Below, piece by piece: positions 15,620-44,691 of a stretch of 64,000 nt of DNA. The number at the start of each line of letters is the position of its first letter. Positions within the stretch are counted from its first letter, which is position 1. The notes under the pieces were generated by a model. The model was given only the letters and a program-made list of their open reading frames with translations. It made no database searches and had not been told where the DNA came from. The stretch comes from Miltoncostaea oceani (GTDB lineage: Bacteria > Actinomycetota > Thermoleophilia > Miltoncostaeales > Miltoncostaeaceae): the NCBI RefSeq assembly GCF_018141545.1, contig NZ_CP064357.1, forward strand, positions 558,001 to 622,000. The letters are read 5' to 3'. The position numbers and the translations under genes are program-made.

Positions 15620-16636
15620 TCAGCCGCGGAGGCCGAGCGGCGGGGTCGGACCGCGGGTCACCAGCCACGCGCTGAGGCGCTCGCCGGCACGCTTCGCGAC
15701 CGGGAGGGTGAACCGGCCGCGGGCGGTCAGGGTCACCCGGTCGGGGACACGTCCCACCAGCGACCGCGGCACCCCGAGGGCGATCGTCGCGAACGGGATG
15801 TGCGGCCGGACCTCGGCCACCACCCCCGTGCGTCCCGGGCCCGCGGGCCGCAGGACGATGCGCGGACGCAACGTCAACTCGAACGTCGAACGGCCGATCG
15901 GAGGGCCGTAACGGCGGGCGGAGCGCGGACCGACCCCCGGCCACACCACCCACACATAGGTGCGTCCCTGGCGCAGCACACCCTCCGGCACCCGCAGACG
16001 GTTGCCCGTCGGCCACGCGTTCAGCACGCGGCGGGTGCCGCGGAAGACCTGCACGTTGTAGTGACCGGCCCCCCGCGTCGCGCGCCAGCGCAACGTCGGC
16101 GTCTGCCACGGGAGCCAGCTCGCCGCACCGGGGCTCAGCAGACGGCCGAACGCGGCCGCCACCTCCCCCGGGGCCGGCGGCGCGGCGGCGACCGCCGGCG
16201 GCCGCGCCGCGGGGTCCTCGTCGATCGGGACCACCGGGACGGGCGTGAGGTCCACCGCCGGCTCGGGGTCGCCGGTCGCCGGGTCCTCCACCGGGGCGAT
16301 CGGCGCCGGGTCGGTGCCCTCCGCCGGGGGCGGCGCCAGCCCCGGAAGCTCCCCACGCAGGTCGACCTGCGCCTCGGCGCCCCAGTCGGCGCAGTCGCTC
16401 GGCTTCTCACCCATGCACGCGTCGCCCACCGCCACCGGGGACGGTGACGGCCGCCCGTCCGGCGCCACGGCCGCCACGGGGACCGCGGCGGCGATCGGGC
16501 CGCCGAGGAACCGCTCCGGCACCGCGACCGGGATGTCGGCGACGGCCACCCCCGGGGCGACCAACGCGATGGCCCCGGCGAGTGCCGGGGGCACGACGCG
16601 GAGGAGGGCGGACCTGCGGCGGGGAGGCGGCATCAC
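15620..16636 (-). CDS. Secreted protein with Pro-rich linker and FN3-like domain
   Basis: A protein of 338 residues: a signal peptide (1-33, cut after VAVA), a short N-terminal part with FLGGPI, a long Pro/Ala/Asp linker (about 95-165), and a beta-rich C-terminal domain (about 175-338). The last includes YNVQVFRGTRRVLNAW and RTYVWVVWPG, reminiscent of fibronectin type III strands. It is clearly homologous to the protein at 62555-63517: both share the N-terminal FLGGPI and almost the whole C-terminal domain, down to the final GPTPPxGLRG. A two-cysteine motif near 74-82 (ACMGEKPSDC) is also shared in spacing. Function is unknown, probably structural or binding at the cell surface. Confidence 0.75.
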   Translation of the reverse strand: MMPPPRRRSALLRVVPPALAGAIALVAPGVAVADIPVAVPERFLGGPIAAAVPVAAVAPDGRPSPSPVAVGDACMGEKPSDCADWGAEAQVDLRGELPGLAPPPAEGTDPAPIAPVEDPATGDPEPAVDLTPVPVVPIDEDPAARPPAVAAAPPAPGEVAAAFGRLLSPGAASWLPWQTPTLRWRATRGAGHYNVQVFRGTRRVLNAWPTGNRLRVPEGVLRQGRTYVWVVWPGVGPRSARRYGPPIGRSTFELTLRPRIVLRPAGPGRTGVVAEVRPHIPFATIALGVPRSLVGRVPDRVTLTARGRFTLPVAKRAGERLSAWLVTRGPTPPLGLRG

Positions 16637-19128: not shown

Positions 19129-19755
19129 TCAGACGATCAGGGGGGTGATCGCGGTCGTCACCTCCTCGACCGTGAGGGTCGGGTCGAAGGCGTTCGGCGC
19201 CGGCTGGGCGCCGTTCAGGAGGCGGATGATCGCCGCATGGCGCGCCTCGATCTGGACGATCGAGCCCGCCGCCCCCAGGACCTCGGCGCTCTGGATCATC
19301 GGGCCGGCGCCGTTGTAGGCGCTCACCCCGGTGTCCTCAAGCGTCTGCGCGAGCGTCAGGAACGTCTTCTGGTTGGTGATGGGGAAGCTGAACTCCGGCA
19401 TCGCCGCCGGCGTCCCTCCGAGGGCGGTGATCGTCTCGGTCAGGGCCGTCACGTGCGCGGCCTCGTCCTCGCCGAACCGCGTCGCGAACGTCTTCACGTC
19501 CCCGCCGAGGTCCAGGCCGGCGGCCTCCTCGTAGAAGGCGGCCTCCAGGTACTCGAGGGTGAGGGCGAAGTTCAGGATGTCCAGGTCCCCGGCCTCCGAC
19601 TGCGCGAGCGCCCTCGACACGAAGGGCGACACGAAGCCGGCGCCGTAGACGGCGCCGGCGGCGAGGGCCCCCCGCAGAACGAACGCGCTCCGCGTCATCC
19701 CACGGACCTCGACCCCTTCGAGCTCAGGCGAAGCAAGCGTGAATCCACTGGTCAT
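19129..19755 (-). CDS. Exported ferritin-like domain protein, second copy
   Basis: A protein of 208 residues with an N-terminal hydrophobic signal (about 20-51, ending SRALAQ; only one arginine pair-like TR is seen, so the Sec/Tat route is open). A four-helix ferritin-like domain follows. Its helices contain LEYLEAAFYEEA, DEAAHVTAL and VQIEARHAAII, matching the Glu-x-x-His pattern of di-metal sites. It is translated from ATG 19755, 28 bases after the stop of the lipoprotein-type ferritin gene, so they form one operon. The two share the core motifs and are paralogues. Confidence 0.82.
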   Translation of the reverse strand: MTSGFTLASPELEGVEVRGMTRSAFVLRGALAAGAVYGAGFVSPFVSRALAQSEAGDLDILNFALTLEYLEAAFYEEAAGLDLGGDVKTFATRFGEDEAAHVTALTETITALGGTPAAMPEFSFPITNQKTFLTLAQTLEDTGVSAYNGAGPMIQSAEVLGAAGSIVQIEARHAAIIRLLNGAQPAPNAFDPTLTVEEVTTAITPLIV

Positions 19756-19783
19756 GTTGCGACTCCGATCGGGTGGGGTGGGA

Positions 19784-20572
19784 TCAGCCGGTGATGAACG
19801 GGGAGGCGAGCGCGAGGACGTCCTCAGCCGACGCCCCGTTGGCGAACGCGCCGTCCGGCAGGGTCCCGAAGTAGGCGTCCGGCACCGCGCCCTCGGCGCC
19901 CGCGCCGGGGCCACCCGCGAAGTCGTTGCCGACCACCAGGTTCAGCGCCGCGGCGTGCCGGGCCTCGACGCTGTGGATCGCGAGGGCCGCGGCCAGGATC
20001 TCCGGGCTCTGGATGTTGGCGGCCTGCCCCAGGTACGCGGCCGCGCCGAGGTTCTCCACGTTCGCCGCCAGACCGGCGACGGCGTCGGGGCCCATGTCGA
20101 ACACCGCCGTGAAGTCCGTCGTCGGCTTCGGCGCCGCCATGCCGAGGCTGTTCGCCACCTCGCGGAGGGCGACCACGTGCTGTGCCTCGTGATCGCCGAA
20201 CATCTTCAACGTCGCCGCGTACTGGGCGTACTTCGTGCCCGCGAAGATCTTGCTGGAGATCACCTGGGCGTAGAAGTCCGCCTCGATGTGCTCGAGCGTC
20301 AACGCGTAGTTGACGATGCCGAGGTCCCCGTCGCCGAAGCTCGCCGGGGGGGCGCCCACCGGGGCGGCCGCCGTCGTCGCCGCGGCGGTGGACGTCGAAC
20401 CGGCGGAGTCGTCGTCATCGCCGCACGCGGCGAGCAGGAGGCCGAAGGCACCGGCCGCGCCGGCCCCGCCGACCATCTTCAGGAACCTGCGCCGGGCGAC
20501 CGGGTCGTTCGCCAACCGGTCGACCGCCTTCTCGGTACCCGGATCGGTGTCCAGGGGAGTGCGAGTGGCCAT
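19784..20572 (-). CDS. Ferritin-like domain lipoprotein with Tat-type signal
   Basis: A protein of 262 residues. RRRFLK (27-32) precedes a hydrophobic stretch ending in LLAAC, so Cys50 is the likely lipid-modified residue, followed by an Asp-rich spacer and a Thr/Ala linker. The ferritin-like domain (about 90-262) has LEHIEADFY, DHEAQHVVAL and IHSVEARHAA, the expected metal-ligand pattern. It should be anchored on the outer face of the membrane. ATG 20572 has GGAG upstream; an earlier start at 20614 would place 14 odd residues before the signal. First gene of a two-gene operon with 19129-19755. Confidence 0.83.
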   Translation of the reverse strand: MATRTPLDTDPGTEKAVDRLANDPVARRRFLKMVGGAGAAGAFGLLLAACGDDDDSAGSTSTAAATTAAAPVGAPPASFGDGDLGIVNYALTLEHIEADFYAQVISSKIFAGTKYAQYAATLKMFGDHEAQHVVALREVANSLGMAAPKPTTDFTAVFDMGPDAVAGLAANVENLGAAAYLGQAANIQSPEILAAALAIHSVEARHAAALNLVVGNDFAGGPGAGAEGAVPDAYFGTLPDGAFANGASAEDVLALASPFITG

Positions 20573-21037
20573 CTGCGTGCTCCGTCTCTCGAGGCTGCGG
20601 ACCGTGGGGTCCATGGGCCGTGCGGACGTGATCGAGCACGGGCGGAAGGCGGGGCGAGGGGCCTTGAGACGTCAGCCATCACGGCGGTCCCGTCGCGCTA
20701 GGAGACCGGTCGCACCCCTCGCCATCACCTAATGGGATCCCGTGGTCGTGTCCATGTGCAGGACACCGCCGGGGGTCTGGGGCGGCGTGTCCTCACGCCG
20801 GGCGTGAGGCCTACGCGGTGATATCCACCCCGCAGCGAACACGCTATCGAAGTAGGAGGGGCACGGTAACCGGATCCGGGCCGCGTTCTCCGTCTGCCCC
20901 ACACGCTTGCCGCCGCGGGGGCGGGTGGTCCCTGCCGAGGCGGCTACACCGCCGGCAGGGACTACCGCGGACCCTCGGCCACGGGCCACGCGCATCGTCG
21001 GGGGGCGCCGCCCTCGCCTACCCACCGCATCCCGCGC
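20573..21037. other. Gap of about 465 bp with a hairpin
   Basis: Upstream region of the ferritin-like operon. A perfect 8-bp stem (CCTCACGC / GCGTGAGG, 20791-20809) is present. No gene seen. Confidence 0.35.
20791..20809. terminator. Short perfect hairpin between same-strand genes
   Basis: CCTCACGC and GCGTGAGG flank a three-base loop, between the small minus-strand gene ending at 21038 and the ferritin-like operon starting at 20572. It may end transcription from upstream or be an operator; sequence alone does not decide. Confidence 0.35.
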
Positions 21038-21280: not shown

Positions 21281-21550
21281 CCCGCCACGGTACGCCGCGG
21301 GCGGCTGCCCGCTGCCACCCAGAGGGATAGGGCGAGGGCAGAAAAGGACAGTCCGCCCCACCGACGCAGTGGCCTCTCGGATCGGTTCCCGCGCGACGTC
21401 GCCGGGGTGGGGACGTCAGATGGCCCCCTCGAACGCCGATGGGAGGTCCGTGCCCCTCTCTCCCCTTCCGGGCCCTCCATGCCGGACGAGGAGACGGGCA
21501 GGGCGACGGGACGGATCCCGCCGCGGAACTCGCCAGGGAGGGCGCCGGGG

Positions 21551-21754
21551 ATGGACTTCCCACCGCTGGAGGTGTGGGAGAGGGACGTCGCGTTCTCGGT
21601 CTACGAGAGCCTCAGGCGGGACCTCTCCCACACCGACCCGACAGAACTGTGGGTGCGGCTGTCGCCCCTCACCGCCTGCCAACGGGCGCTCGTCTACCGT
21701 TGCATCGCCCGTGCCGCAACGGATTCGCTCGGCGGGTCAAGCGAGGACCCATAG
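21551..21754 (+). CDS. Small protein, family B N-domain (first of a two-gene pair)
   Basis: A 67-residue helical protein: FPPLEVWERDVAF, a linker, then LWVRLSPLTACQRALVYRCI. The same plan (W near the start, then xRLxxLTxxQRxxV) recurs in the N-half of the 34032 protein and in the whole 34768 protein. Start ATG 21551 has GGGAGG nine bases upstream; an earlier ATG at 21480 has no such site. The next gene starts ten bases after this stop. No known family recognised. Confidence 0.6.
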   Translation: MDFPPLEVWERDVAFSVYESLRRDLSHTDPTELWVRLSPLTACQRALVYRCIARAATDSLGGSSEDP

Positions 21755-21763
21755 GATCACGAG

Positions 21764-22012
21764 GTGTCAACCCTCATCGTCATGGGCGACCTTGAGCAGG
21801 CCGGCGACCCGCTGGAAGGCACCCAGCTGTGGCGAATAGATTTCCTGGGCTGGGACGTCGTCCATAGGTTTCTCACTGAGATGAGGTGCGTGCCGCGCCG
21901 ATACATCTTGCTTGCCGACGGACAGATCCTCGCCGCCGGGAGAACAGACGCACCGCACCTGGCCCCGGGTGAGACCTTTCGGCTTAGCGTGAGCGAACCG
22001 GAGGCCGGGTAA
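21764..22012 (+). CDS. Small protein, family B C-domain (second of a two-gene pair)
   Basis: An 82-residue beta-rich protein from GTG 21764. Key segments: TLIVMGDLEQAGDPL, QLWRIDFLGWDVVHRFL, VPRRYILLADGQILAAGRTDA and PGETFRLSV. The same segments, in the same order and spacing, form the C-half of the 34032-34571 protein (ELWCVPFEGWGAVHHL, VPRRFAVVGD, GLTDA, PGEAFDIQV). So this gene and the one before it correspond to a single fused protein 12 kb away. Function unknown; no catalytic motif is evident, apart from a conserved HxxxxxxxVPRR block. Confidence 0.65.
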   Translation: MSTLIVMGDLEQAGDPLEGTQLWRIDFLGWDVVHRFLTEMRCVPRRYILLADGQILAAGRTDAPHLAPGETFRLSVSEPEAG

Positions 22013-22514
22013 GGGGCGAGTTCGAGCAATGCTGGAGCGATCTCCTCGCCGCTTGACCGGGCGTGATCCCCGAAGCGTGGGCAACCGCGACACGAGCGTC
22101 AGGGACTGACCACCACCCTGACGTCGACATCGGCAACCTTGAGACGTCCGCCTTCCTGACCGGCAGCAGCGGCTCGCTCGGTCGTCCCGCCAGAACAGAT
22201 GAACGGGCTGAGGGCTCTGACCGACCCGGTGGTCGGGACATCGACTGGTTGCCTGCCGGAGTGAGCGAGGCGTCCCCCGTGACCGAGGTCCAGGGTACGT
22301 GCGGTCGGTTGCGCCCGGTCGCCTCCCGCCGCGTCGGCGCCGTCCGTGGCAGCCGATACCCCTGGCGTCCTCGCAACCCGCCTCATCCACGCGAGGCCAT
22401 CGCCGAACGCGTGGATCCCCGTCCTCTCGGAGCCGCCACCCCTCACCGGCACCGAAGCAGGCCCACAGAGGGACAGCGCGGCGCCAGGAGGCGACCACGG
22501 GGCAACGTCTCGCC
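22013..22514. other. Gap of about 500 bp between convergent genes
   Basis: No gene supported. A minus-strand frame ends in LKVADVDVRVVVSP just right of 22095 and may be a relic, but it lacks a start and a recognisable domain. Confidence 0.35.
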
Positions 22515-23042
22515 TCAGTCCGCGAGGCCCTCAGCGCACCGGTCGATGGCGGCGATTGCTCGCCGGAGGTCGTCCCGCGCGAACTCCGCAACCCGCGCGG
22601 TGTCGACGATGCGACCCTCGCGGGCATAGACACCAGCCAAGTCCAGGAAGTCGAGTGCGGACACGTACGCGGTACCGGCACGATCGAGACACCCATCGGC
22701 GGCACGGTCGACGCGCTCCTGGAGCCCTCGTCGCTCGCGATCGGCGATTTCCGCGAGGGGCAGGATCGACGCCGACAGGCACGCATCGCTCGCGCACCGC
22801 TCCACACGACGCAGACGCGGTTCGACTGTCTCGATGCCCTCAGAGATCGCGCGACGCAGGTCGCGATCGGCCTCCTCCAGCCCGGCGATGATCTGCCGCT
22901 CGCGCGACAGCGTACGTCCATCGAGGGGGACCGAAACGATTGGCGGGACGACATCCGGCTCGTCGCCCCCGCAGCCGGTGAGCGCACTGACAAGCAGAAC
23001 GGTCAACAGCACCTTCGAGGCCCGGACCCTTCTGATCCCCAC
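22515..23042 (-). CDS. Lipoprotein of unknown function
   Basis: A protein of 175 residues. A signal peptide with lipobox LTGC (Cys24) is followed by a mature helical domain rich in Glu and Arg with six cysteines (for example VERCASDACLSAS, ADGCLDRA, AIDRCAEGL). The spacing suggests disulfides outside the membrane. No family recognised. Start is GTG 23042, with GGAAGGGAGG directly before it (spacing is tight). It is convergent with the 21764 gene across a 500-bp gap. Confidence 0.62.
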   Translation of the reverse strand: MGIRRVRASKVLLTVLLVSALTGCGGDEPDVVPPIVSVPLDGRTLSRERQIIAGLEEADRDLRRAISEGIETVEPRLRRVERCASDACLSASILPLAEIADRERRGLQERVDRAADGCLDRAGTAYVSALDFLDLAGVYAREGRIVDTARVAEFARDDLRRAIAAIDRCAEGLAD

Positions 23043-23254
23043 CCTCCCTTCCAGGTCACCGGTCGCTCATTGACCCGCGGGACGAGCTCCCGTCTCGAGG
23101 TATAGCCGAATGCTGCAGCGATCGGCGCGACGTCGGGTCGGCAGGCGCTGAGGATCGCGCGCCCGGATGTACGCCACTCCCCGGGGCCCGGCACCCAGGT
23201 CCCCGGTGACCCTCTCGGATACGCAGAGTGTGCGGGATGCCGATAGGGCCGCCC

Positions 23255-23650
23255 ATGGATCTTCTCGAGCCGCAGCCGCGGGCGGGACACGCCGAAACCG
23301 AGGAAAGCGCCGAGGTCGCAGGTTCAGCAGGCGGGCGACCGCAGCGTCCTGGAGACGGTCGCCGCCATCCTCGGCGAACGCCTGGACATGGACTCGACCC
23401 TCGCGGGGATCGCCTCAACAGCGCAGCGGACGCTGGGCAGCGACCGGGCGAGCTGTTTCGTGCACGACGGTGAGGACGTCAGCATCGTCGCCGTCCACAC
23501 CACCGCCACGGACCCCCGTGAGCGAGGCTTCCTCACGCGTTCGGCCGGCCGGCCGCTGGTGAAGCTGCCGATCTGCCGCCTGCTGGTCGAGCAGAGCGAT
23601 CCACTCCCTATCGTGGAGGACATCCAACCCGTGGGTCGGATCCCCGCGCT
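23255..23650 (+). pseudogene. Truncated, frameshifted GAF-domain gene
   Basis: A GAF domain can be read as DRSVLETVAAIL, LAGIASTAQRTLGSDRASCF, VSIVAVHTTATDPRERGF and LPICRLLVEQSDPLPIVEDI, typical of sensor GAF domains in this genome type. The first part (about 23337-23387) has no start codon in its frame. A plausible start (ATG 23255, reading MDLLEPQPRAGHAE) is in a different frame, so one frameshift near 23330 is needed. After about 23650 the GAF similarity stops and another protein follows in frame. Confidence 0.45.
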
Positions 23651-24425
23651 CGCCTTGAGCCTCTGTTCTTACCCGCTTTGCGTGGATAGAGCGGCGCCGT
23701 CGCGCCTCGCCAAGGTCGGCGTCAGGTTGGTGGAGACGGACCTCGGCTGCGATGCTCGATCCATAAAGCGCATCGGAAGCAAACCCGTTGCGGGCGTGGC
23801 AGCCGCGGCCGCCATCGGACTCGTCGCCTATGCAGCGTTCCACGACGGAAACGACGCCATGAGCCGACCGGACCCCGGCAGCACGGCCGCCGTTGCTGTC
23901 GCGACGCCAGGCCAGACGGACCTGTTCACCAGCATGGCGTGCGGGTATGGAGGTCGTGTCGCCTTCGTGTGCACCACGGCGGCCCGCAATCCTGCGCAGG
24001 TCGCCTCGGCTTGGCAGATGATGACGGGGCGCTCCGACGCGCCGCCCGAGGATCTCCTTCTTCTCGCGCGTCGGGTTGGACGTGCCTACGGCGATCCGTC
24101 CTCCCAAGTCATCGGCGCCGCCTCGACCACGCAGGTGCGCGGGTGGGCCGCAGTTGGCGCCGTCATGCGCGCGCGCGGGAGGCCCACCAACCCTGATGCT
24201 CTACCCCAGTCGCGGAGGGTCTGGTTCGTCGCGCTGCAGGGCCGCTTCATCGCAGGTCCGCCGAGCCGCAGCCCGGGCAGCCCCGGCCCCCCGACGACGC
24301 CCCTCGTGCGCACGCAGCTCGGGCTTGTCGTTGACCAGGCCACGCACGCGCCGCTGCTCATCGCGGTCACCAACCGTCCCCCGAGGCTCGATCGCCTTGA
24401 CGCACCCCTGCTGAGCATTCCCTAA
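23388..24425 (+). CDS. Chimeric reading frame: GAF fragment joined to an exported protein
   Basis: The open frame from ATG 23388 is 345 residues. Residues 1-85 are the GAF remnant described separately. From about residue 125 a different protein follows: a hydrophobic segment (about 132-152, VAGVAAAAAIGLVAYAAF), a Pro/Thr/Ala linker, and an extracytoplasmic domain (about 180-345) with two cysteines (SMACGYGG and AFVCTTAA) and regular strands. The natural start of the exported protein may be a GTG near residue 112 (23721). Function unknown. Whether the two parts are expressed together cannot be told. Confidence 0.45.
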   Translation: MDSTLAGIASTAQRTLGSDRASCFVHDGEDVSIVAVHTTATDPRERGFLTRSAGRPLVKLPICRLLVEQSDPLPIVEDIQPVGRIPALALSLCSYPLCVDRAAPSRLAKVGVRLVETDLGCDARSIKRIGSKPVAGVAAAAAIGLVAYAAFHDGNDAMSRPDPGSTAAVAVATPGQTDLFTSMACGYGGRVAFVCTTAARNPAQVASAWQMMTGRSDAPPEDLLLLARRVGRAYGDPSSQVIGAASTTQVRGWAAVGAVMRARGRPTNPDALPQSRRVWFVALQGRFIAGPPSRSPGSPGPPTTPLVRTQLGLVVDQATHAPLLIAVTNRPPRLDRLDAPLLSIP

Positions 24426-24599
24426 GGGAAATGCCCCCAGTCACCGGGGCTTGGCAGGCGGGAACGGGGGGGTGGTCCGCTGAACGCCTCGGGAGATGCC
24501 ACTCGGCGGGGGCCCCGCTACTGGGCTACGGACACGGAGCTCGGCGTCCGGGACCAGCGGGCGGAGGCGGAAGGGGCCCCTTCGGCCCGATCCCCTCCC

Positions 24600-25089
24600 C
24601 GCGCGGCGAACACCGGGCTCGTCAACGACAACCCCTTCGCTGCCGCCTGTCACCACACCATCAGCTAACTGCGGCTCGCGGCCGGTTGGGAGGAGGCGTT
24701 CAACACCCGGATCCAGGGGGACCAGATCGAGGTGATCGGCTCCAGTGGATCCGGGTTGATCCCCCGGTAGTCGCGCGCGGTTGACCGAGTCATTCTGCCA
24801 CCGGATGATCGAGGGGCTCGCTCCCGCCTCCCACGGCCACCTCAGATCTTCTTCGGGTTACGTGGACCTCGCCCTCCGGGCCGACTAGGGCGTGGAGAGC
24901 TATAGCGGCCACACGATCGGCCTCCCCGACGGATCCATCTACGGAAGGCTGTGCGTCATCGACCGACAGCCGCGAGTCGCGGCAGCGGCGGGGAGCGAAC
25001 TGTGGAACGCCCTCGCGCGGCTGCTGGCCTGGGGAGCCGACCGCGGGAGGGTCCTCACCGCCGTCGGTCGCGCCCGCGCCGGCCTCTGA
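24600..25089 (+). pseudogene. Decayed GAF-domain gene with in-frame stops
   Basis: Translation gives successive GAF-like pieces: NTGLVNDNPFAAACHHTIS (ending in a TAA at 24666), GWEEAFNTRIQGDQIEVI (same frame), then after a +1 shift LTESFCHRMIEGLAPASHGH, an in-frame TAG at 24886, and SYSGHTIGLPDGSIYGRLCVIDRQPRV. The last block matches the signature of GAF domains ahead of GGDEF domains (SYxGxPIxLPDGxxYGxLC). Two stop codons and a frame change show that it is dead. It ends 93 bases from the start of the convergent GGDEF/HD-GYP gene. Confidence 0.55.
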
Positions 25090-25181
25090 CCGCAGCCGCC
25101 CGCGTCCAACACCGCCCGTTCGGTTGGCGACCCCACCTCGAACGCGACCACCTGGTCCGCGGGCTCGCGGCCCGTGGCGGA

Positions 25182-27275
25182 TCAGTGGGTCTGCCCGCCA
25201 CCTGCCAGGGCCCCGGATGCGTCGAGACGGGTGAGGACCGCGACAACGTCAGGGCAGAGGCTGCTGCCGGCGATCCCCACACACGACGCAAGTGCCGCCG
25301 AGGGCGGCATCGGCGCCCCGCCGATGCCCGCGCAGAGGCAGTCGAAGGTGTCGGCGACCGCGAGGATGCGAGCGCCCTGTGGGATCGCGTGGCCCCTCAA
25401 CTGCTCGGGTCCGCCTGACCCGTCGAAGCGTTCAGGCCTGGATCGGATCCAGGCGAGCTGTTCGGGGAGGAGAGCCCGGGCGAGGATCTGACTTCCGAGC
25501 ACCGCCCACCGCGCCGTCGGCTGACGCTCCACAGCACCGGAGGGAGCGGCGATCTGACCGATGTCGTGCAGGAGCGCCGCCTCCCGCAGGAGGATCGTCT
25601 CGTGCACCGGCCACCCGAGGCCGGTCGCAAGCCGGACCGAGAGGTCCGCGACCCGTTCGGAGTGGCCGCGGCTCGGGGGATCCACGGATTCGACCGAGTG
25701 AGCGAGGGCACGCAACGGCGTGAGGGTCGCCTCCCTGACGCCGGTGACCGGACCGTCCCCTTCACCGTCTGGCGATGACTGGGTGTGACGCACGGATTGG
25801 TTGCGGCCCCCGGCTTTCGCCCGGTAGAGGGCGGCGTCTGCGAGCGCGAGTAGCGCATCAGCGTCGGAGGCGGCCAACGAGTCGGCGACACCGGCCGATG
25901 CGGTCACGGTGAGGCGCTCACCGACCGGGCGAGCGAAGATGGCGACCCGGATCCTCTCCAGGGCATGCCAGGCGCTTGCCTCTGTGGTGTCAGGCAGGAT
26001 CCAGGCGAACTCCTCACCGCCGATGCGGGCTACGAGGTCCCCCGGCCGCGCCTCCTCCGCGAGCCGCTTCGCGACCTCACGCAGGACCGCGTCCCCGGTG
26101 GGGTGGCCGTGGCGGTCGTTGACACGTTTGAAGTGGTCGATGTCGAGGATCGCGACCGAGAGGCGGCGCCCATGCCGCCGGGCCCGGGCGAGTTCCTCCT
26201 CCAGCCGCTCCTGGAAGCTGCGTCGGTTGGCGAGGCCCGTGAGGGCGTCGGTCGCGGCTTGGTGCTCCAGAGACGCCCGGTGCTCTGCGCTGGCGATCGC
26301 GAGTCCGACGATCTCCCCGAGCCGCGTCAACCGCTCCTCGGCGTCGTCGGGGACCGCGTGGGGCCTGGGGCTGGTCGCGACGACCGCCCCCCAGAGGCTC
26401 CCGTCGACGACGATCGGTGCCGCCACCGAACTGCGGATCGGTATCCGGGTGACGGCGCGCGCGACCTCGCCGTCGAGGCTCGCGTAGTCATCCACCCGCG
26501 CGGGTTCGCCCGAGCGCGCAACCCGGGAGAACACGGTGTCGTCGGCGAGGGGAACACGACGCAGGTCCTGGCGCGCGTCGATCTCTGTGGCAGGGGCGAT
26601 CCAGGACGCCAACAGTTCAGCCGCGTCGGTCGTGAACCGGCCGACCGCACCGATCTCGAGGCCGACGAGGCAGGCGACCTCCCGTGCGAGCGCCGAGAAG
26701 ATCTCCTCAGGCTGGGCGGCCCCTGCCAGCAGGGTCGAAAGGCGCGCGATGGCTTCGTGCTCAGCGGCGCGTTGCTCTAGCAGCACGCAACACTCGGCGT
26801 AGCCGAGTGACGGTGCAGCAAGACCAGCGAAATCGGCGAGGCGCTCTGCGGACGCCTGCGACAGGACACCGTGCCGGCGCGTCACGACATGCAATGCCCC
26901 CCAAGATCGGCCACCGAGCACGACCGGAGCTGCGACAGCGCAGCGGTACCCGAACGGCTCGGCACGGACGCGGACGGGGTCCCCTGCATCGAGCGACCAG
27001 TAGTCGATGTGCACCGGCCGGGTACCGAGAATGCACGACTCGACGGCGCCGCCGTGGCCTCGCGTCAAGCGGAAGCCCCGATGGGCTGTCTCTTGGGAGG
27101 AGCTCCCGAGGACCGTCAGCCTCTCGGGCCCGGCCCTCCACACCAACCCTCCATCACCGCCGACCAGATCAGCCGCCCCACCCGCCACGAGCCGCAGGAC
27201 CTCCGAGACCGACGATCCCCGAGCCACGGCGCGGGCGACCGAGACGATCCCCGACCGATCATCCTCCCCGCTCAC
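25182..27275 (-). CDS. GAF-GAF-GGDEF-HD-GYP signalling protein (cyclic-di-GMP)
   Basis: A protein of 697 residues from GTG 27275, which has GGAGG six bases upstream. Two GAF domains (about 10-170 and 180-340) are followed by GGDEF (about 345-510) and a C-terminal HD-GYP-like domain (about 530-695). The GGDEF active site is GGEEF, preceded five residues earlier by RPGD, the RxxD inhibitory site, so cyclase activity with product feedback is expected. The HD-GYP part keeps HSERVADLS and LLHDIGQIA, but the usual HHE and GYP motifs read RPE and GGP, so its phosphodiesterase activity is doubtful. Cytosolic; no membrane segment. Neighbour of a dead GAF gene on the other strand. Confidence 0.9.
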   Translation of the reverse strand: MSGEDDRSGIVSVARAVARGSSVSEVLRLVAGGAADLVGGDGGLVWRAGPERLTVLGSSSQETAHRGFRLTRGHGGAVESCILGTRPVHIDYWSLDAGDPVRVRAEPFGYRCAVAAPVVLGGRSWGALHVVTRRHGVLSQASAERLADFAGLAAPSLGYAECCVLLEQRAAEHEAIARLSTLLAGAAQPEEIFSALAREVACLVGLEIGAVGRFTTDAAELLASWIAPATEIDARQDLRRVPLADDTVFSRVARSGEPARVDDYASLDGEVARAVTRIPIRSSVAAPIVVDGSLWGAVVATSPRPHAVPDDAEERLTRLGEIVGLAIASAEHRASLEHQAATDALTGLANRRSFQERLEEELARARRHGRRLSVAILDIDHFKRVNDRHGHPTGDAVLREVAKRLAEEARPGDLVARIGGEEFAWILPDTTEASAWHALERIRVAIFARPVGERLTVTASAGVADSLAASDADALLALADAALYRAKAGGRNQSVRHTQSSPDGEGDGPVTGVREATLTPLRALAHSVESVDPPSRGHSERVADLSVRLATGLGWPVHETILLREAALLHDIGQIAAPSGAVERQPTARWAVLGSQILARALLPEQLAWIRSRPERFDGSGGPEQLRGHAIPQGARILAVADTFDCLCAGIGGAPMPPSAALASCVGIAGSSLCPDVVAVLTRLDASGALAGGGQTH

Positions 27276-28704
27276 CGCCCACCTCCGGGGTCGACGGTCA
27301 CTCCCGTCAATCCCGAGCCCCGGGTCACCAAGTGAGGCCGACGCGGCCACGGCCTGCGGCGCACGTCCGGATAGCCCACCGCTGGGACAGCACATCGGTC
27401 GAAGGACGCTGGTAACCGGTTCTCTCTGACGTCATCCCAGTGCCGGACGCGCGCCGCACTGCCCCGCCGGTTGCCCCCAACACCTGCCAAGTGGGCGGGT
27501 GTCCAGTAACGAACCCCGTCATCCCTCGCCACGTCAGGGACCGGGGGAGGGGCGGCCGGCGGAACCGGAGTCGGCAGGCGATAACCAACACTGTGGCGGG
27601 AGCGTTCGCGTCCGAGCGAAAAACCAGGAAGCATTGGGCGGGTCTGCGTCGGTGGCGACAGCCACGCCTCTCACTCTCCCTGAAAGCAACGAGACCCCCC
27701 GGATGGCCGGAACGGGCGGGGCCCCCCGACTCGCCCGCGACTCCCCACCAGCCACCTCCCCACCGCGTGTTCGAAAAGTGTCGGTCGTCGCGCCCTCGAC
27801 GCAGCGAATGGGCGATGAACTCCACAAACCTACCCCATTTGCACGATTGAGTTGTGCTCGATTGAAAGCGTCAAGCACTGGGTGGGACGGGTCCCGGTGA
27901 CCTGCTGGCACCCTCAGCCTTGTATCGCCGCCGTCCGACGCTCGCCAACGCGCGGGTCCTCCGCGGGGTGACGGCTGGCGGCCGATGGGTGGCTGGCGAC
28001 CGGAGTTCGCCCAGCTCGGCCTGATCACGTGGGGGGGCGACGAGGTGCGCATGCCGAGCGACCCGACGCCGTCCGAGGTCGAGAACACGCGGCGGGCGGG
28101 CGCGCGTCACCACCCGCTCGTGGACCTCGCCGGGGTGCCGCTTGAACACCGACCTGAACAACCTCGACGACACGGAACCACGACCGATGGCGGCAGCCCC
28201 CGAGGGGCCGTCCCGTGGACGTTCAGTCAGTGCAACCCTCGGACCGTCGCCAATCCGGTCGGCGCGAACCTCGACGGGTGATCCCCCTGCTCACCCTCGT
28301 CGGCGCGGGCCCGACCTCGCGCTCGCGGGCGTCGTCTCGATCGGTCGTTCACCGTCTGGGAGTGCGCCCTGGTGCGTGTGTCGAGCACCGAGCCGGGGCG
28401 TACGCTCGCTCGTGAAAATGTTCAGGGGTGCCCGCGGCACGCGCCTCTTCGGTCAGAAGCTGGTGATCATCAGGGGTTCCCGGTCACGCCGGGTCTCGGT
28501 ACCGGTCCGGCGCCGCCAAGAACCTCAACTCGCGTGCAAAGCCGGGGCTTGCATGGGGCTATTCGAGGGCGCCGCCACTCCCAGAGTCGAGCGTCAAGCC
28601 GGACGCGCCGACCATCAGGACGATCAAGCTTCGCCGGTTTCCCGAACGGCTTGACGCCCCGGCGACGGGTCCCCGGAGGGACCCGTCGCCATACCGGTCA
28701 CGAG
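27276..28704. other. Long gap of about 1.4 kb
   Basis: The left end holds the promoter region of the GGDEF gene and the right end the terminator at 28661-28690. One plus-strand stretch (about 27985-28140) reads semi-plausibly (ITWGGDEVRMPSDPTPSEV) but has no support beyond that. No RNA gene or repeat seen. Confidence 0.4.
28661..28690 (-). terminator. Terminator of the isocitrate-lyase-fold gene
   Basis: A perfect 12-bp stem (GGCGACGGGTCC / GGACCCGTCGCC) around a six-base loop, 14 bases beyond the stop codon on the minus strand. Confidence 0.65.
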
Positions 28705-29460
28705 TCAGCGCCAGCGGCCCGCGATCTCGAGCGAGTAGTCGGTCAAGGCGGCCTGCAGGAGCGGGCCGAACGTGACGCGGCCCACCCCAAGCGACGCGAG
28801 GTGCGCGAGGGAGTGGTCGACCGGGTGGGCGGTGATGTTGACCGGCACAGGCATCGCGGTGACCACGTCGCGCACGAGGTCGTCGTCGGCCTGGATCTTC
28901 ACCGGGTAGACGCAGTCGGCCCCGGCCTCGACCAGCAACAGCAGCCGGGCGATGCCCTCCTCGCGCAGCGACGCCGGATCGTCGGCGCCCTTGAACACGT
29001 CGGTCCGCCCGTTGATCACGAGCGGGACCGAGGCGGCGTCGGCGGCCGCCCGCAGGCCGGCGACATACGCGGCGTGCTCCTCGGGTGCCCGCAGGCGGCC
29101 GCCCTCCGAATGGACGGTGTCCTCGATGTTGAGCCCGGCGGCCCCCGCCGCCACGAGGCCGGCGACGAGGTCCTCGGGCCCATGCCCGTAACCCGACTCG
29201 AGGTCAACCGACACTGGGACGTCGACCGCCGCGATGATCGGGGTGACCGCCGCGAAGACCTCCTCGAGGGTGAGGTCCTCGCCGTCCTCCGCGCCGAGAG
29301 CCGCAGCGAGCGGGTGACTCCCGATGGTAAGGCCGCCGAAGCCGGCGCGGACGGCGGTGCGCGCCGACCACACGTCCCACACCGTCGGCAGCACCAGCGG
29401 CCCGTCGCCGCCGTGCATCTCCTTGAGCCGTGCGGCCGCAGCCGCCGCGTTCGGGTCCAT
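28705..29460 (-). CDS. Isocitrate lyase/PEP mutase superfamily protein
   Basis: A protein of 251 residues with the phosphoenolpyruvate mutase/isocitrate lyase barrel: LVLPTVWDVWSAR, GFGGLTIGSHPLA, VPVSVDLESGYGHGPED (metal-binding Asp/Glu) and AAGAAGLNIEDTVHSEGG (IED motif), with late INGRTDVF. It lacks the KKCGH loop of true isocitrate lyase, so carbon-phosphorus or carbon-carbon cleavage of a 2-oxoacid such as oxaloacetate or methylisocitrate-like compounds is likelier. The substrate is unknown. ATG 29460 follows GAGGAGA at a good distance. It is monocistronic. Confidence 0.85.
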   Translation of the reverse strand: MDPNAAAAAARLKEMHGGDGPLVLPTVWDVWSARTAVRAGFGGLTIGSHPLAAALGAEDGEDLTLEEVFAAVTPIIAAVDVPVSVDLESGYGHGPEDLVAGLVAAGAAGLNIEDTVHSEGGRLRAPEEHAAYVAGLRAAADAASVPLVINGRTDVFKGADDPASLREEGIARLLLLVEAGADCVYPVKIQADDDLVRDVVTAMPVPVNITAHPVDHSLAHLASLGVGRVTFGPLLQAALTDYSLEIAGRWR

Positions 29461-29746
29461 GTCGTCTCCTCGTCTGGGTGGGTCCCTGGTGGGCCCGTCG
29501 TCGCACCGCACCAGGATGCCCGACACCCGGCGAAGCGACGCATCCACCGGCCCCAGGCCCCCACGGCAGGAGGCGGCGGGGCGCCAATCGCGTCGGCGCG
29601 CGCGCAGCCGGCCGGCGGGGTCGGCGGCGACGTCGCCGATCGCACCGGCCGGCTGCTCGGAGCCCGTAGCGTCCCAGCTCTCCCGGTAGCGCCCGATGCG
29701 ACGCGCGAACGCCCGCTGGAGTGCGGCGTCAGACGCGCCCCCCCGG

Positions 29747-30259
29747 TCAGCGCGCGGTCCGCACGACGCTCTCGGTCAACTGCTGGAGGGCGTCGCGCAA
29801 CCTCGAGATGCCCTCGGCATCCAGGCCCATTCCGTCGGCGATGGCCGATGGGATCTCGGTGGCGCAGGCGTCGAGTTCCCGCCCGCGTTCGGTCAGGGTG
29901 ACGAGGACCGCGCGCTCGTCGTCGGCACGGCGCCGGCGGTTGATCAGTCCCGCGACCTCCATCCGCTTCAACAACGGTGAGAGGGTCCCGTAATCGAGGG
30001 CGAGGGCCTGCGCGAGGTCACCGACCGCGACCCCGTCCTCCTCCCAGAGGGCGAGCATCACCAGGTACTGGGGGTACGTCAGCCCGAGGCGCTCGAGCAT
30101 CGGCCGATACAGGGAGGTCACAGCCCGCGACGCGGCATAGATCGCGAAGCACAGCTGGTCCTCGACCCGTCGCGACGGGTCGAGGCTGGTGTTCTCCGCA
30201 TGCGGCGGGGGCGTCGTCGGTTCCAACGGGCTCCTCGGATGGTGGGTTGATGTCGACAC
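29747..30259 (-). CDS. ohrR: MarR-family regulator, OhrR-like
   Basis: A protein of 170 residues from GTG 30259 with a winged helix-turn-helix in MarR arrangement (about 35-165). The segment VEDQLCFAIYAASR has Cys37 in the position of the redox-sensing cysteine of OhrR. LGLTYPQYLVMLALWEEDG and LALDYGTLSPLLKRMEVAGLINRRR are strongly OhrR-like. OhrR represses peroxide-resistance genes until this cysteine is oxidised by organic hydroperoxides. The divergent neighbour (30372) is a haloperoxidase-like hydrolase rather than Ohr; it may be the target. Confidence 0.8.
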   Translation of the reverse strand: MSTSTHHPRSPLEPTTPPPHAENTSLDPSRRVEDQLCFAIYAASRAVTSLYRPMLERLGLTYPQYLVMLALWEEDGVAVGDLAQALALDYGTLSPLLKRMEVAGLINRRRRADDERAVLVTLTERGRELDACATEIPSAIADGMGLDAEGISRLRDALQQLTESVVRTAR

Positions 30260-30371
30260 CGTCAGGGTAGCTCCCCCACGTCCGCCATCACATCGTGCAC
30301 AAGGTATGTGGGTTCGGTGGACGAGGGCGGCGCCGTACGGGCCGCCCTCCACGACGACGGAAGGGCTTCTC

Positions 30372-31208
30372 TTGACTGAGATCTCCGCGCGTTCGGGCCT
30401 GCTGAGCCGGACCAAGCTGCACGTCGACGACACCGGCGGCGAGGGCCGCCCCGTCGTGTTGATCCACGGGTGGCCCCTGTCGGGGGAGGCTTGGGCGCCG
30501 CAGGTGCCGGAGCTCGCGTCCGCGGGGTACCGGGTGGTCACCTACGACCGGCGCGGCTTCGGGCGCAGCGACAAGCCGGGCCGCGGCTACGACTACGACA
30601 GCCTCGCCAAGGACCTCGAGAGCATCCTCGACGAACTCGAGCTCACCGACGTCACCCTCGTCGGCTTCTCGATGGGCGGCGGTGAGGTCGCCCGCTACAT
30701 CGCCAACCACGGTGAGGAGCGCCTTCGGAGCGTCGTCTTCGCCGCGGCGGTGCCGCCCTACCTGATGAAGAGCGACGGCAACCCCGACGGCCCCCTCACC
30801 AAGGACGCCGCCGAGGGGATGGAGCAGGGGCTGCGCGACGACCGCGACGCCTTCTTCGAGCAGTTCACGACCACGTTCTTCAGCGCCGATGGCCAGCTCA
30901 AGGTGAGCGAGGCCGAGCGCACGGAGGCGGTCGCCCTCTGCCACCAGTCCGACCAGGACGCCGCCCTCGCCTGCATGGAGTCCTTCGGTACCACCGACTT
31001 CCGTCAGGACCTCCCGAAGGTCACTGTGCCGACCCTTGTCCTCCACGGCTCCGCCGACGCGATCGTGCCCCTTGAGGGCTCCGGCGCGCGGACCCACCGC
31101 GCGATCCCGCACAGCGAGCTGGTCGTCATCGACGGTGGCCCCCACGGCGTGAACGCCAGCCACGCCAGCGACTTCAACCGGGCGCTGCTGGAGTTCCTCA
31201 GCCGCTGA
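30372..31208 (+). CDS. Alpha/beta hydrolase, non-heme haloperoxidase/arylesterase-like
   Basis: A protein of 278 residues. The oxyanion/HGWPL segment near residues 32-36, nucleophile Ser100 in GFSMGG, acid Asp229 (GSADAIVP) and His258 (GGPHGVN) form the catalytic triad of the cofactor-free haloperoxidase/esterase group. These hydrolyse esters and can form peracids from acetate and peroxide. The TTG start at 30372 has AAGGG about eight bases upstream; an open frame further upstream runs across the regulatory region and is unlikely coding. Divergent from the OhrR-like gene across 112 bases, which fits control by peroxide stress. Confidence 0.85.
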   Translation: MTEISARSGLLSRTKLHVDDTGGEGRPVVLIHGWPLSGEAWAPQVPELASAGYRVVTYDRRGFGRSDKPGRGYDYDSLAKDLESILDELELTDVTLVGFSMGGGEVARYIANHGEERLRSVVFAAAVPPYLMKSDGNPDGPLTKDAAEGMEQGLRDDRDAFFEQFTTTFFSADGQLKVSEAERTEAVALCHQSDQDAALACMESFGTTDFRQDLPKVTVPTLVLHGSADAIVPLEGSGARTHRAIPHSELVVIDGGPHGVNASHASDFNRALLEFLSR

Positions 31209-31226
31209 CGGTCAGGTGCGCCCAAA

Positions 31227-31259
31227 GCTCCACCCCCGCTGACCGCGCAGGGGTGGAGC
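31227..31259. terminator. Bidirectional terminator between convergent genes
   Basis: GCTCCACCCC (31227-31236) pairs perfectly with GGGGTGGAGC (31250-31259), midway between the stop codons of the hydrolase at 30372 and the GAF gene at 31279. Confidence 0.6.
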
Positions 31260-31278
31260 AGGGGGCAACCGGAACTGC

Positions 31279-31746
31279 CTACCCTTCGGCGGTGGGGCGC
31301 TGGAGGACCGCGGCTGCGAGCAGGGCCAGGTCGTCGAACGCGGCGACCTGCTCCTCGGTGAGGTCACCGGCGTCCGCGTCCCACGCGCACAAGGTGCCGA
31401 CGAGGGCGCCGTCGTCCATCCGCAGGGGCGTGGAGACGTACCGTCGGACACCCGGCTCGTCGCCCCGCACGAACGAGGAGTACCCGAACCGCTGCTCCTG
31501 GCTGGCGTCCCCGGTGACGATCCGCTCCCCGGACTCGACCACCAGGCGACACATCGAGTCCTCGCGTGGGTGCGGGGCGACCGGGGCGTTATGGCCGGCG
31601 ATCCGGTGCTGGACCCGATCGTCGAGGATGTGGACGCCCGCCCCGCTGCCGTCGGCGATGTGGCCGGCGAGCCGGACGATCGCCTCGAGCGCCGGGTCTC
31701 CACTCCGGGCGAGGATCTCCGAGATCCGGGCCGGCCCGGGCGTCAT
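31279..31746 (-). CDS. Stand-alone GAF-domain protein
   Basis: A protein of 155 residues that is one GAF domain: ISEILARSGDPALEAIVRLA, AGVHILDDRVQHRIAG, DSMCRLVVESGERIVTGD and VSTPLRMDDGALVGTLCAWD. No output domain is attached. The ATG at 31746 overlaps the stop of the upstream hydrolase as ATGA, so the two are translationally coupled. The ligand is unknown; its blocks match the pseudogenes near 23.4 and 24.8 kb. Confidence 0.78.
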   Translation of the reverse strand: MTPGPARISEILARSGDPALEAIVRLAGHIADGSGAGVHILDDRVQHRIAGHNAPVAPHPREDSMCRLVVESGERIVTGDASQEQRFGYSSFVRGDEPGVRRYVSTPLRMDDGALVGTLCAWDADAGDLTEEQVAAFDDLALLAAAVLQRPTAEG

Positions 31747-32438
31747 CGGTTTGCCGCCTCGGCGATCGCGGCTGCGAGCTCGGAGGGCCGCGACAACAGG
31801 GGGATGTGGCCGGCGTCCACCTCCACCGTCCGCGTCGCGTTGACGGCCATCCGCCGCTGGAGCGCAGGCGAGAACACCTTGTCCTGCGTCGTCAGGATGT
31901 ACGTCGACGGGTGCTCCTTCCATCCCAGCGCGGTCGGTGCCTCGCCGAACACCGCCAGTCGGTGCGGGCCGAGGGCGGCGATGATCGGTGCCGCCTGCTC
32001 GTCTGTGACGTCGTTGAAGAGGATCGCCTTGGCCCCCACGGGATCCAGGATCGACATCCCTTCCTCGTCGCTTCGGATCGCCGACCCGATGTCGCTCGGC
32101 TGTGGGTCCTCACCCATGAGCGACCCCGTCGACTGGCCCTCCTCCGGGAGGATCGCGCAGACGTAGACCAGTTCCTTCACCTTCTCGTTCCCAGCGGAGG
32201 CCTCGGTGATGACAACACCGCAGTAGGAGTGGCCGACGAGCACCGCCGGCTCAGCGAACCCTGCAAGCGCCTCGCGAACGGTTGCCGCGTCGTCGGCCAT
32301 CGTGCTCGGAGCACGCTCACGGGATGGGAGGTCGATCGCAGTCGACGTCACACCCAGCTTGTCGAGCTCCGCCTGGACGAAGCCCCACGCCCACGCGCCA
32401 CCCCACGCGCCGTGGACCAACAGCACCGGTGCGCTCAT
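31743..32438 (-). CDS. Alpha/beta hydrolase (methylesterase-like)
   Basis: A protein of 231 residues. LLVHGAWGGAWAW is the oxyanion-hole strand, GHSYCG contains nucleophile Ser71, and DAGHIPLLSRP carries the late His. The plan, with a small cap and VYVCAILPEEGQS, matches the salicylate/indole-ester methylesterase-like EstC group in bacteria. The substrate is unknown. ATG 32438 has a G-rich site upstream. It forms a two-gene operon with the GAF protein. Confidence 0.82.
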   Translation of the reverse strand: MSAPVLLVHGAWGGAWAWGFVQAELDKLGVTSTAIDLPSRERAPSTMADDAATVREALAGFAEPAVLVGHSYCGVVITEASAGNEKVKELVYVCAILPEEGQSTGSLMGEDPQPSDIGSAIRSDEEGMSILDPVGAKAILFNDVTDEQAAPIIAALGPHRLAVFGEAPTALGWKEHPSTYILTTQDKVFSPALQRRMAVNATRTVEVDAGHIPLLSRPSELAAAIAEAANR

Positions 32439-33081
32439 CCCGGACCCCCTGACTCGAGGCCGCCACGGTGGCGACCTAGGAGACCGGAAACTACCTTTTG
32501 CGCGATGATCTTGTGGAAGAGGCAACCCAAAGGGGGTTCCGGCAGCGAGGAGTCGCCCTGCCGCCCGGGCTCCTGCGACGCGTCTTTTCGTGACGCATTG
32601 AGGCCCCGCGGCGTCCGGTGGTCCACGGGCCGTCGTTCCCCGGGGCACGCAACGGCCCGCCGCTCGGAAACGGCGCCGGGCCGAGTGACTTCCACATCGA
32701 CGAGACGCGCCGGCACACGCCCCGCCGGACTCGGAGCCCTCCTTCCTTGCACGAAAGAAGCCCTATCCGCTCGTGCTCTCGACCTATGGGGCCGCGGCGA
32801 TCGTGCCAGTACCGGAAGGTCAGAGCGTCGATCTCCTAGCCCGCTGACCCGAACTCGAGCAGGGGGATCCGCTGGACGCGTTCGCGCCCGTAGGGCCCGC
32901 CACCCGGCGCGGCCCTCGCCGCGACCGACGTCGGGCCGACCGCTCGCGGCGGGAGCTACACCCTCCGGGGCCGGTGCCTCAACCGGGCGTGGAGCCTCGG
33001 TCGGTGATCTCAAGTCCGCCCGCGTCGGTCGATCTCAACGAGGCGGAGTGCGGTGGCACCGACAACGAGCCCCGGGGCCGC
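32439..33081. other. Gap of about 640 bp
   Basis: No supported gene. In one plus-strand frame (about 32756-32880) the reading STYGAAAIVPVPEGQSVDLL is interrupted by a TGA and may be a relic. Nothing else seen. Confidence 0.3.
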
Positions 33082-33327
33082 TCAGTCAGATTCGGGTCTC
33101 TGGCCGCTCCGTCGCAGCCGCCAACGCGTTCCGGTGGGCGTGGCCTCCCACTCGGCCCGTCCCGTGCGTTCCAAGGTCGCTAGTAGCTGCCGAGCTCTCG
33201 GAGCTGTGATGTTCGCGGCTTCAGCAACCCGCCAGAGGTCGATCCATCGTCCGGCGTACCGTGGGTGGGCGAGGACGGCTTCCACCGCAGTCAGGGGGTG
33301 ACCGTCGTTGAGCATGACGGCAGTCAC
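33082..33327 (-). CDS. Small winged-helix-like protein
   Basis: An 81-residue frame: LTAVEAVLAHPRYAGRW, LWRVAEAANITAPRARQLLATLERTG, then a wing-like WEATPTGTRWRLRR. This is the shape of a MarR/ArsR-type DNA-binding domain without a sensor part. Start is GTG 33327 or ATG 33315; neither has a good ribosome site. No family certain. Confidence 0.5.
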   Translation of the reverse strand: MTAVMLNDGHPLTAVEAVLAHPRYAGRWIDLWRVAEAANITAPRARQLLATLERTGRAEWEATPTGTRWRLRRSGQRPESD

Positions 33328-33759
33328 TTTAAGTCGCTACCTACGTCGGCGGTAGATCCCCGGTTGGGCCCTCCGTGCACACCGACTCTCGACTCGACGA
33401 TGGCCCCCGCACCGGTCGCGAGCCCTCTGCGTTCCCTTGGGGTGCGAGCGCGGCGCGCGAAGAAACCCTCGGGACCTCGATCGCCGACGGTCCCCCAACG
33501 AAATGGCGGGGTTGCCCGCCCGGCCCGATGGCAGCGTCAACGGGTGGACGGCGGACAGGCGATGCAAATGGTCGGACCGTGAATCGCCCCGAGCCGCGCG
33601 TCACGTCAATCGCGGGGGGCCGAGTGACAGAACGGGTCCCCAAATTTGCTGTACCACCGCCCGACGATATACTTGCCGCTCTCCCGTCGTGCTGATCAGC
33701 GAGGGACGTTGAGATCGAGCATCGCCGGGTCCGGTTCAAAGGGACAGCACGGAGACCGG
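33328..33759. other. Gap of about 430 bp with a promoter
   Basis: Contains the predicted promoter of the small-gene pair that starts at 33760. No gene seen in the rest. Confidence 0.35.
33646..33673 (+). promoter_or_regulatory. Sigma-70-type promoter for the 33760-34571 genes
   Basis: TTGCTG (33646-33651) and TATACT (33668-33673) are separated by 16 bases, close to the housekeeping consensus, in a locally AT-richer patch. The next start codon is 87 bases downstream. Confidence 0.45.
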
Positions 33760-33984
33760 GTGGACGAGGCCGTCGAACGTGCGGCGCTTGCCGTCCTCAA
33801 CCTGAGGCTCGACCCGGTCTGCGGACGCGTCGCGCCGCCGAAGCCCGATGCGGGCGACTGGCTAGTGGACATCGAGTTGCCCGGTGAGTCCAGCGAGGTC
33901 ATCAGGGGCTCGACGCCGATCGTCGCCCTGGCAAGTGCCGCCGAATGGGTTGAGCGTGCCCTGCGTGTTCGTCGAGCCGGCTAG
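33760..33984 (+). CDS. Small protein of unknown function (74 residues)
   Basis: Starts with GTG 33760; GGAG lies seven to eight bases upstream. Residues: a helix DEAVERAALAVLNLRL, a beta part DPVCGRVAPPKPDAGDWLVDIELPG, and a second helix VALASAAEWVERALRV. The helix-strand-helix pattern with balanced charge supports coding. No family recognised. It precedes the fused family B gene by 47 bases on the same strand. Confidence 0.55.
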   Translation: MDEAVERAALAVLNLRLDPVCGRVAPPKPDAGDWLVDIELPGESSEVIRGSTPIVALASAAEWVERALRVRRAG

Positions 33985-34031
33985 ACAGATGCCCAAAGCG
34001 CGAGAAGCAGGCGCGAACGCTGTCATGCCAG

Positions 34032-34571
34032 GTGAGAGCGCCTACAGGACCGATCCTGGAACCACGGCACGCCTCGACCTGCGCCCTTTGGTCTGCCGTG
34101 CGTGACAGAGGCGGATTCGACCCACCGGTAGACCTCTGGTCGCAGCAGGCGGCCGAGATCGCACTGAGGAGCCTGGTCCGGGACCGCACCATCATCGGGG
34201 CCGATGAAGCGTGGCGGCGCCTGCAGAGGCTCACCGCCGCCCAACGAGATTGGGTCATCTCGCGAGTCCAGCTGTGGGAACTGGTCGCAGATCAGCCTGC
34301 CGATAGGGTCCCGACGCCGACCCGAGACGCTGTGTTGATCGTCGCCGGAGACCGCATCAACCCAGGCGAGGATGCCCACGATGTCGAGTTGTGGTGTGTT
34401 CCCTTCGAGGGTTGGGGCGCCGTCCACCATCTCCACGCATCGCACTGGGTCGTGCCGAGACGGTTCGCGGTGGTCGGTGACGCGCTCATCCAGGCGTCCG
34501 GATTGACCGATGCGTCTCTCGTGCTGCCGGGAGAGGCCTTCGATATCCAGGTTCAGCGCCCGCCGCGGTAA
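34032..34571 (+). CDS. Two-domain protein, fused family B
   Basis: A protein of up to 179 residues. The N-domain (about 29-76; VDLWSQQAAEIALRSLV, then RRLQRLTAAQRDWVISRV) matches the 21551 product and the 34768 product. The C-domain (about 97-176; DAVLIVAGDRINPGED, ELWCVPFEGWGAVHHL, VPRRFAVVGD, GLTDASL, PGEAFDIQV) matches the 21764 product. So it is the fused form of the two-gene cassette. Start is GTG 34032 or GTG 34098; the first 22 residues do not look domain-like. Function unknown. Confidence 0.65.
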   Translation: MRAPTGPILEPRHASTCALWSAVRDRGGFDPPVDLWSQQAAEIALRSLVRDRTIIGADEAWRRLQRLTAAQRDWVISRVQLWELVADQPADRVPTPTRDAVLIVAGDRINPGEDAHDVELWCVPFEGWGAVHHLHASHWVVPRRFAVVGDALIQASGLTDASLVLPGEAFDIQVQRPPR

Positions 34572-34767
34572 CGACCGCACGACTCGAAACTGTGATCCGC
34601 GGGCGCCGGAGTCGCCCGAGCCGCCGCACGCGTCTAAAGCGGGCCGCCGGACAGACCCCGGGCGCGGTGAGCTGTTCGCGATCAGTAGTCGTGTGCGATC
34701 CCGGGCGTTGCGGACGGGTGCGATCGACGACCACTCCACTCATCAGTCGAAGGTGCCGGGGGCGCCT

Positions 34768-34956
34768 TCACGCTGCAGGTGGCCATTCCCACACCGTCCT
34801 GATAGCGGAGACAACGAGGGCACGCTGCTCGGGCGTCAGGCGTCCCAGGCGGCGGGCGGCGTCACCGGCATCCACGTGGGGGAGGTCTCGGGCGAGGCGA
34901 GCGAGTTCTCGCAGTGCCCCGTCCTTCGCCCACTCGTTGAGCGGTGGATCTGTCAC
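34768..34956 (-). CDS. Single-domain member of family B (N-domain only)
   Basis: A 62-residue helical protein from GTG 34956: PPLNEWAKDGALRELARLARDL, then AARRLGRLTPEQRALVVSAIRTVWEW. It shares the W, the RLxxLTxxQRxxV block and the overall length with the N-domains at 21551 and 34032, but has no C-domain partner next to it. It is convergent with the fused gene. Confidence 0.55.
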   Translation of the reverse strand: MTDPPLNEWAKDGALRELARLARDLPHVDAGDAARRLGRLTPEQRALVVSAIRTVWEWPPAA

Positions 34957-44578: not shown

Positions 44579-44671
44579 CGGAACGGCGCAGGAATCGAAC
44601 CTACCGGGCGGGAGTGATCCCTCCCCCACTCGTTTTGAAGACGAGGCGGGCCACCAGGCCCCGGCCGCTCC
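44579..44671 (-). tRNA. selC: Selenocysteine tRNA (tRNA-Sec, anticodon TCA)
   Basis: 93 bases. The acceptor GGAGCGGC pairs over eight bases with GCCGTTCC (one G-U pair). The anticodon arm CTCGTCTTCAAAACGAG has TCA in the loop. A long variable arm (GGGGGAGGGATCACTCCCGCCC) and a T arm GTAGGTTCGATTCCTGC follow. The eight-base acceptor and long variable arm identify tRNA-Sec. G is the discriminator base; CCA is not encoded. It starts 20 bases after the selB stop, so it is the last element of the sel operon. Confidence 0.93.
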
Positions 44672-44691
44672 CCGGTGCGGTCAAGCGTAGA

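Follow-up and report, generated by a model that had tools for sequence, protein, structure and literature searches.

The window, by which we mean the whole stretch of 64,000 nucleotides of Miltoncostaea oceani DNA that was analysed, is located in an 816-kb contig (C2) of a 4.54-Mb, three-contig genome, and carries four small open reading frames built from two protein parts, here called the N-half and the C-half. A separate N-half gene (21551–21754, plus strand) encodes an acidic protein of 67 aa, predicted to be helical, and is followed by a separate C-half gene (21764–22012, plus strand) with a GTG start, encoding an acidic protein of 82 aa, predicted to be all-beta. Further downstream, a fused N+C protein is encoded at 34032–34571 (plus strand; 179 aa as listed, or 157 aa if translation starts at an in-frame GTG that we read from the sequence at 34098), and an N-half alone (62 aa) at 34768–34956 on the minus strand. 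All four reading frames had been located by an earlier note on this DNA and are present where it placed them.

Are these genes related as parts of one protein? The earlier note held that the genes at 21551 and 21764 are the ordered halves of the 34032 protein and that the gene at 34768 is the N-half alone, and BLASTP bore this out, with E values from 1e-7 to 3e-17. The 21764 product matched the fusion C-half with 38% identity over 78 aa (E 3e-17), and the fusion N-half was matched by the products of 21551 (40% over 45 aa, E 1e-7) and of 34768 (42% over 55 aa, E 2e-9). Shuffling gave z-scores of 27.5 for the 21764 product, 11.3 for the 21551 product and 12.1 for the 34768 product against the fusion, with every shuffle scoring below the real alignment; the similarity between the copies is thus significant by both measures. 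The products of 21551 and 21764 correspond to non-overlapping parts of the fusion, each over nearly its full length and in the same order. Every convincing N or C match that we found is either stand-alone or joined to the other half, so that the domains are not promiscuous. The residues conserved in the C-half are LW-F-GW-H, PRR and PGE; among the motifs that the earlier note listed as shared, VPRR is present in four of the five C copies, the remaining one having TPRR instead.

Because of their codon use and the purifying selection acting on them, the N and C reading frames are genes and not chance frames: dN/dS between the window pair and its counterpart in a prophage (see below) is 0.44 for N and 0.32 for C, and is 0.07–0.20 among N genes linked to sucB. 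The two families were described as unrecognised, occurring split, fused and, for N, as a single domain, and they remain so: neither N nor C had a significant match to a named family in Pfam, NCBIfam, PHROGs, PADLOC or PDB sequences, and no well-known family accounts for them. Two weak Pfam matches, to LacZ_4 (E 0.007) and to FliG_M (E 0.21), were discarded.

AlphaFold modelled the C-half alone, from an alignment of two sequences only, as six strands (pLDDT 88.8). In the model of the fusion (pLDDT 73, pTM 0.48), N forms three helices, the C part contains a helix and the inter-domain confidence is low. Since the lone-C and fusion models differ, the predicted C-half fold is tentative. Fold searches with both models returned no solved or viral structure at E ≤ 0.001. 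N is about 60 aa long and C about 80 aa, and both are acidic, which argues against plain nucleic-acid binding by either half.

Several other features of the window were recorded along the way. A selenocysteine tRNA gene lies within 44579–48254, beside genes that we take by eye to be selB (44695–46485) and selA (46485–48254). Two adjacent related genes with 39% identity occupy 19132–20614 on the minus strand, the second presumably encoding a secreted protein that is ferritin-like and carries a twin-arginine signal. Finally, positions 15624–16118 and 63013–63504 form an inverted 71% DNA match, and the corresponding frames are a paralogous pair (54% identity across about 300 aa).

Further copies in the genome and in a prophage

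The earlier note had suggested looking for more copies in the genome, and profile searches found them, with seven clear N-halves and five C-halves in all. Outside the window, a second split pair with an additional C-half after it (N-C-C') lies at C1:1282.4–1283.2 kb, solitary N-halves lie at C1:1327, C1:2930 (upstream of sucB) and C1:3177 kb, and a solitary C-half with no N nearby lies at C2:125.6 kb. Another of these N copies adjoins a TrwC relaxase gene.

The second split pair sits on another contig within a siphovirus-type prophage (about C1:1272–1306 kb; loci L083, L013 and L084), whose genes encode a tyrosine integrase (about C1:1272 kb), an exonuclease, two XRE regulators, an amidase, tape measure, neck, major capsid and portal proteins, and a terminase (about C1:1305 kb). 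The N-C-C' cassette lies between integrase and terminase, beyond the lysis genes. Its DNA aligns with that of the window pair over about 540 bp at 75.8% identity, of which about 95 bp precede the N gene, and the match ends at the cassette edges; therefore the shared unit is the cassette itself, that is, leader, N and C. The encoded proteins have diverged to 59–75% identity, and the gap from the N stop to the start of C is 9 nt in both pairs. The leader contains a 24-nt element (21498–21521, plus strand; inverted repeat CGGGA-CGGA-TCCCG) that is identical 5' of the prophage N gene, and within the genome its 20-nt core is found in exact copy only at these two pairs. The GGAGGG ribosome site of the 21551 gene is also kept in the prophage copy. 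A hairpin in the leader is not supported, its RNA folding energy being no better than that of shuffled sequences, and no sigma-70-like promoter was found in the window copy of the cassette. We found no phage or viral relative of the N-C-C' cassette in viral contigs or phage records; a gut phage record at E 0.6 was dismissed as a match without a listed open frame on its strand.

A repeated block is also present around the window pair. Positions 22234–23668 recur over 1.4 kb, with 90% identical DNA, at a distant place on the same contig (C2:128–129.6 kb; L015 8154–9591), and more genes of the 21–25 kb block of the window are found in that region in a different order. The block shared by the two regions holds a C-half at both places. 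The window copy contains broken pieces of a GAF-GGDEF-HD gene (23388–23668 and 24892–25086) that is intact at C2:126.3–128.6 kb.

A third small family accompanies the C-half. Just upstream of the fusion, a small acidic protein is encoded at 33646–33984 (plus strand). The genome holds one clear relative of it (57% identity; L015 5028–5249, minus strand), next to the solitary C-half at C2:125 kb, so that each of the two genome copies of this family is near a C-half. The protein had no match in Pfam, and by eye its sequence (GDTPEQALASA...) recalls, we presume, HicB-type proteins. It is a possible third partner; the link may also be a mere reflection of the shared duplicated block.

Distribution and history of the two families

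The solitary N gene at C1:2930 kb has counterparts beside sucB, the gene for 2-oxoglutarate dehydrogenase E2, in each of the four genus members examined (this genome and three others), and more distant N genes occur in other gene settings in other genera of the same bacterial family. Outside the family, samples of 399 genomes of the class and 296 of the phylum contained no convincing N; the N profile also gave matches at about E 1e-3 in other families, but these cover only short parts of frames that are mostly larger, and they were rejected. Two members of the genus have a possible N-like gene (E about 5e-4; L068 1483–1869 and L082 about 1501–1686, both minus strand) next to a pilB-type ATPase gene, but we did not include it because the similarity is too weak.

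This genome is the only one in which we found the C-half. It is absent from 41 other genomes of the family, no relative was found in the species genomes, and samples of the class (399 genomes) and phylum (396 genomes) yielded weak fragments only. The C-profile matches elsewhere were rejected because they fell in a LysM protein, in a C-terminus recognised by eye as DUF192-like, or in a frame with a stop. No relative was found in viral contigs, phage records or plasmids. We read N as old in this Thermoleophilia family, because it stands beside sucB in the genus and recurs in other genera, and C as confined to this genome or newly arrived, because it is absent from the relatives.

How did the copies in the window arise? 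In the N tree, the 21551 gene groups with the prophage N (support 100/98), and the fusion N-half groups with the solitary N-halves at C1:1327 and C1:3177 kb (89/88), a grouping to be read with caution given its long branch. In the C tree, the fusion C-half groups with the second C-half of the prophage (98/99), and the 21764 gene with the first prophage C-half and the C2:125 kb copy. The earlier note had proposed a recent duplication within 13 kb; this is not supported, as the trees place the split pair with the prophage pair and the fusion halves with copies elsewhere. With the nearest relatives of the split pair and of the fusion halves lying elsewhere in both trees, the phylogeny speaks against a recent origin of these copies from one another by duplication within 13 kb. 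In addition, N and C may have been joined more than once, because the N and C sublineages behind the fusion are not those of the split pairs.

A candidate two-protein cassette

What do the two halves do? At two places N is followed by C after the same 9-nt gap, and at a third the two are fused. Gene fusion is an indicator of a functional link between the fused parts (PMC4921024). Because one fusion is accompanied by two adjacent pairs with the same order and a short gap, the gene arrangement offers good evidence for a functional link between N and C, and fair evidence for a physical complex. The earlier note took the split/fused relation as strong evidence that the parts work together; this stands as regards a functional link, but the relation by itself shows no mechanism. 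As in classical Rosetta-stone pairs, two separate genes are the halves of one fused protein; here, however, the split and the fused versions are paralogues that coexist in a single genome and not orthologues across species.

The reading that we favour, at a probability of about 45%, is that leader, N and C constitute a cassette of about 0.5 kb whose two genes encode a small two-protein complex (made from an operon or as a fused chain), and that this cassette is spread by mobile DNA like a moron and serves the lysogen or the host. The N-half represents a gene family, old in the Thermoleophilia family, that is normally present in single copy upstream of sucB; in this lineage it would have combined with a C-half. 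The cassette would then have been carried around by mobile DNA, with one N-C-C' copy in the prophage. N and C would bind each other; our guess is that C recognises a target through the LW-F-GW-H, PRR and PGE residues and that N tethers or controls C. The position in the prophage suggests an accessory role, and the module would thus serve the host or the lysogen and not virion building. Accessory (moron) genes are often found beyond the lysis genes of prophages. The cassette resembles such lysogenic-conversion genes in being small and independent, with its own leader, beyond the lysis genes and with no virion role in sight; it differs from them in that most copies here lie outside prophages and in that N comes from an old host family beside sucB. 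Several observations weigh against the favoured reading: (i) four of the seven N-halves are solitary and one C-half has no nearby N, so neither half requires the other at every locus; (ii) the fusion model contains no proven interface, and the beta fold of C differs between models; and (iii) the phage and viral collections hold no relative that would show the cassette moving.

Alternatively, N and C could be ordinary orphan families without a common job, N having spread alone and the neighbourhood of C being an accident of mobile DNA, frozen by one fusion. We consider this somewhat unlikely. It would fit the fact that N stands alone in every relative and at four loci of this genome, the failure to find the C-half elsewhere, and the single lineage of both split pairs, which means that N and C became neighbours at least once and perhaps no more than twice. 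Yet the pair was kept adjacent with the same gap while its proteins diverged, and the origin of the fusion from different N and C sublineages suggests repeated union.

The cassette could also be a new toxin-antitoxin or similar addiction module, with N as antitoxin and C as toxin, kept by mobile DNA. Known features of toxin-antitoxin systems include small co-directed genes, patchy distribution, paralogous and solo copies, and a mobile context (PMC2701414). Likewise, the present pair consists of two small co-directed genes (67 and 82 aa, twice with a 9-nt gap), is sporadically distributed, has several paralogous and solo copies, and has prophage and relaxase genes as neighbours. Unlike type II systems, it shows no toxin, antitoxin or DNA-binding signature in Pfam, NCBIfam, PHROGs or PADLOC; moreover, both halves are acidic, a C copy is present without N, and fusion into one chain would be unusual. 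We hold this explanation to be quite improbable. That the module is an accessory of cyclic-di-GMP signalling, working with GAF-GGDEF-HD proteins encoded nearby, is very improbable indeed: three of the six N/C clusters lie less than 5 kb from one of the 40 GGDEF genes (taking the clusters as independent, P is about 0.008), but two of these three share the duplicated block, which counted once leaves no significance (P about 0.05, or 0.12 with an 8-kb limit), no GGDEF gene lies near the prophage, relaxase or sucB loci, and the GGDEF genes concerned form no distinct subgroup.

The most far-reaching reading would be a new mobile two-protein system, for example for addiction, phage exclusion or host modification, made of two families with no description elsewhere, of which phage recruited one from an old sucB-linked host family. 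We regard this as unlikely. Apart from the points of interest that follow, the cassette would be one more case of an orphan accessory module, a kind common in bacterial genomes. Both families, being missing from the searched libraries, would be new names. The presence of split, fused and prophage forms in a single genome makes the N–C complex easily testable, and the case shows a phage cassette that is related to an old host gene family.
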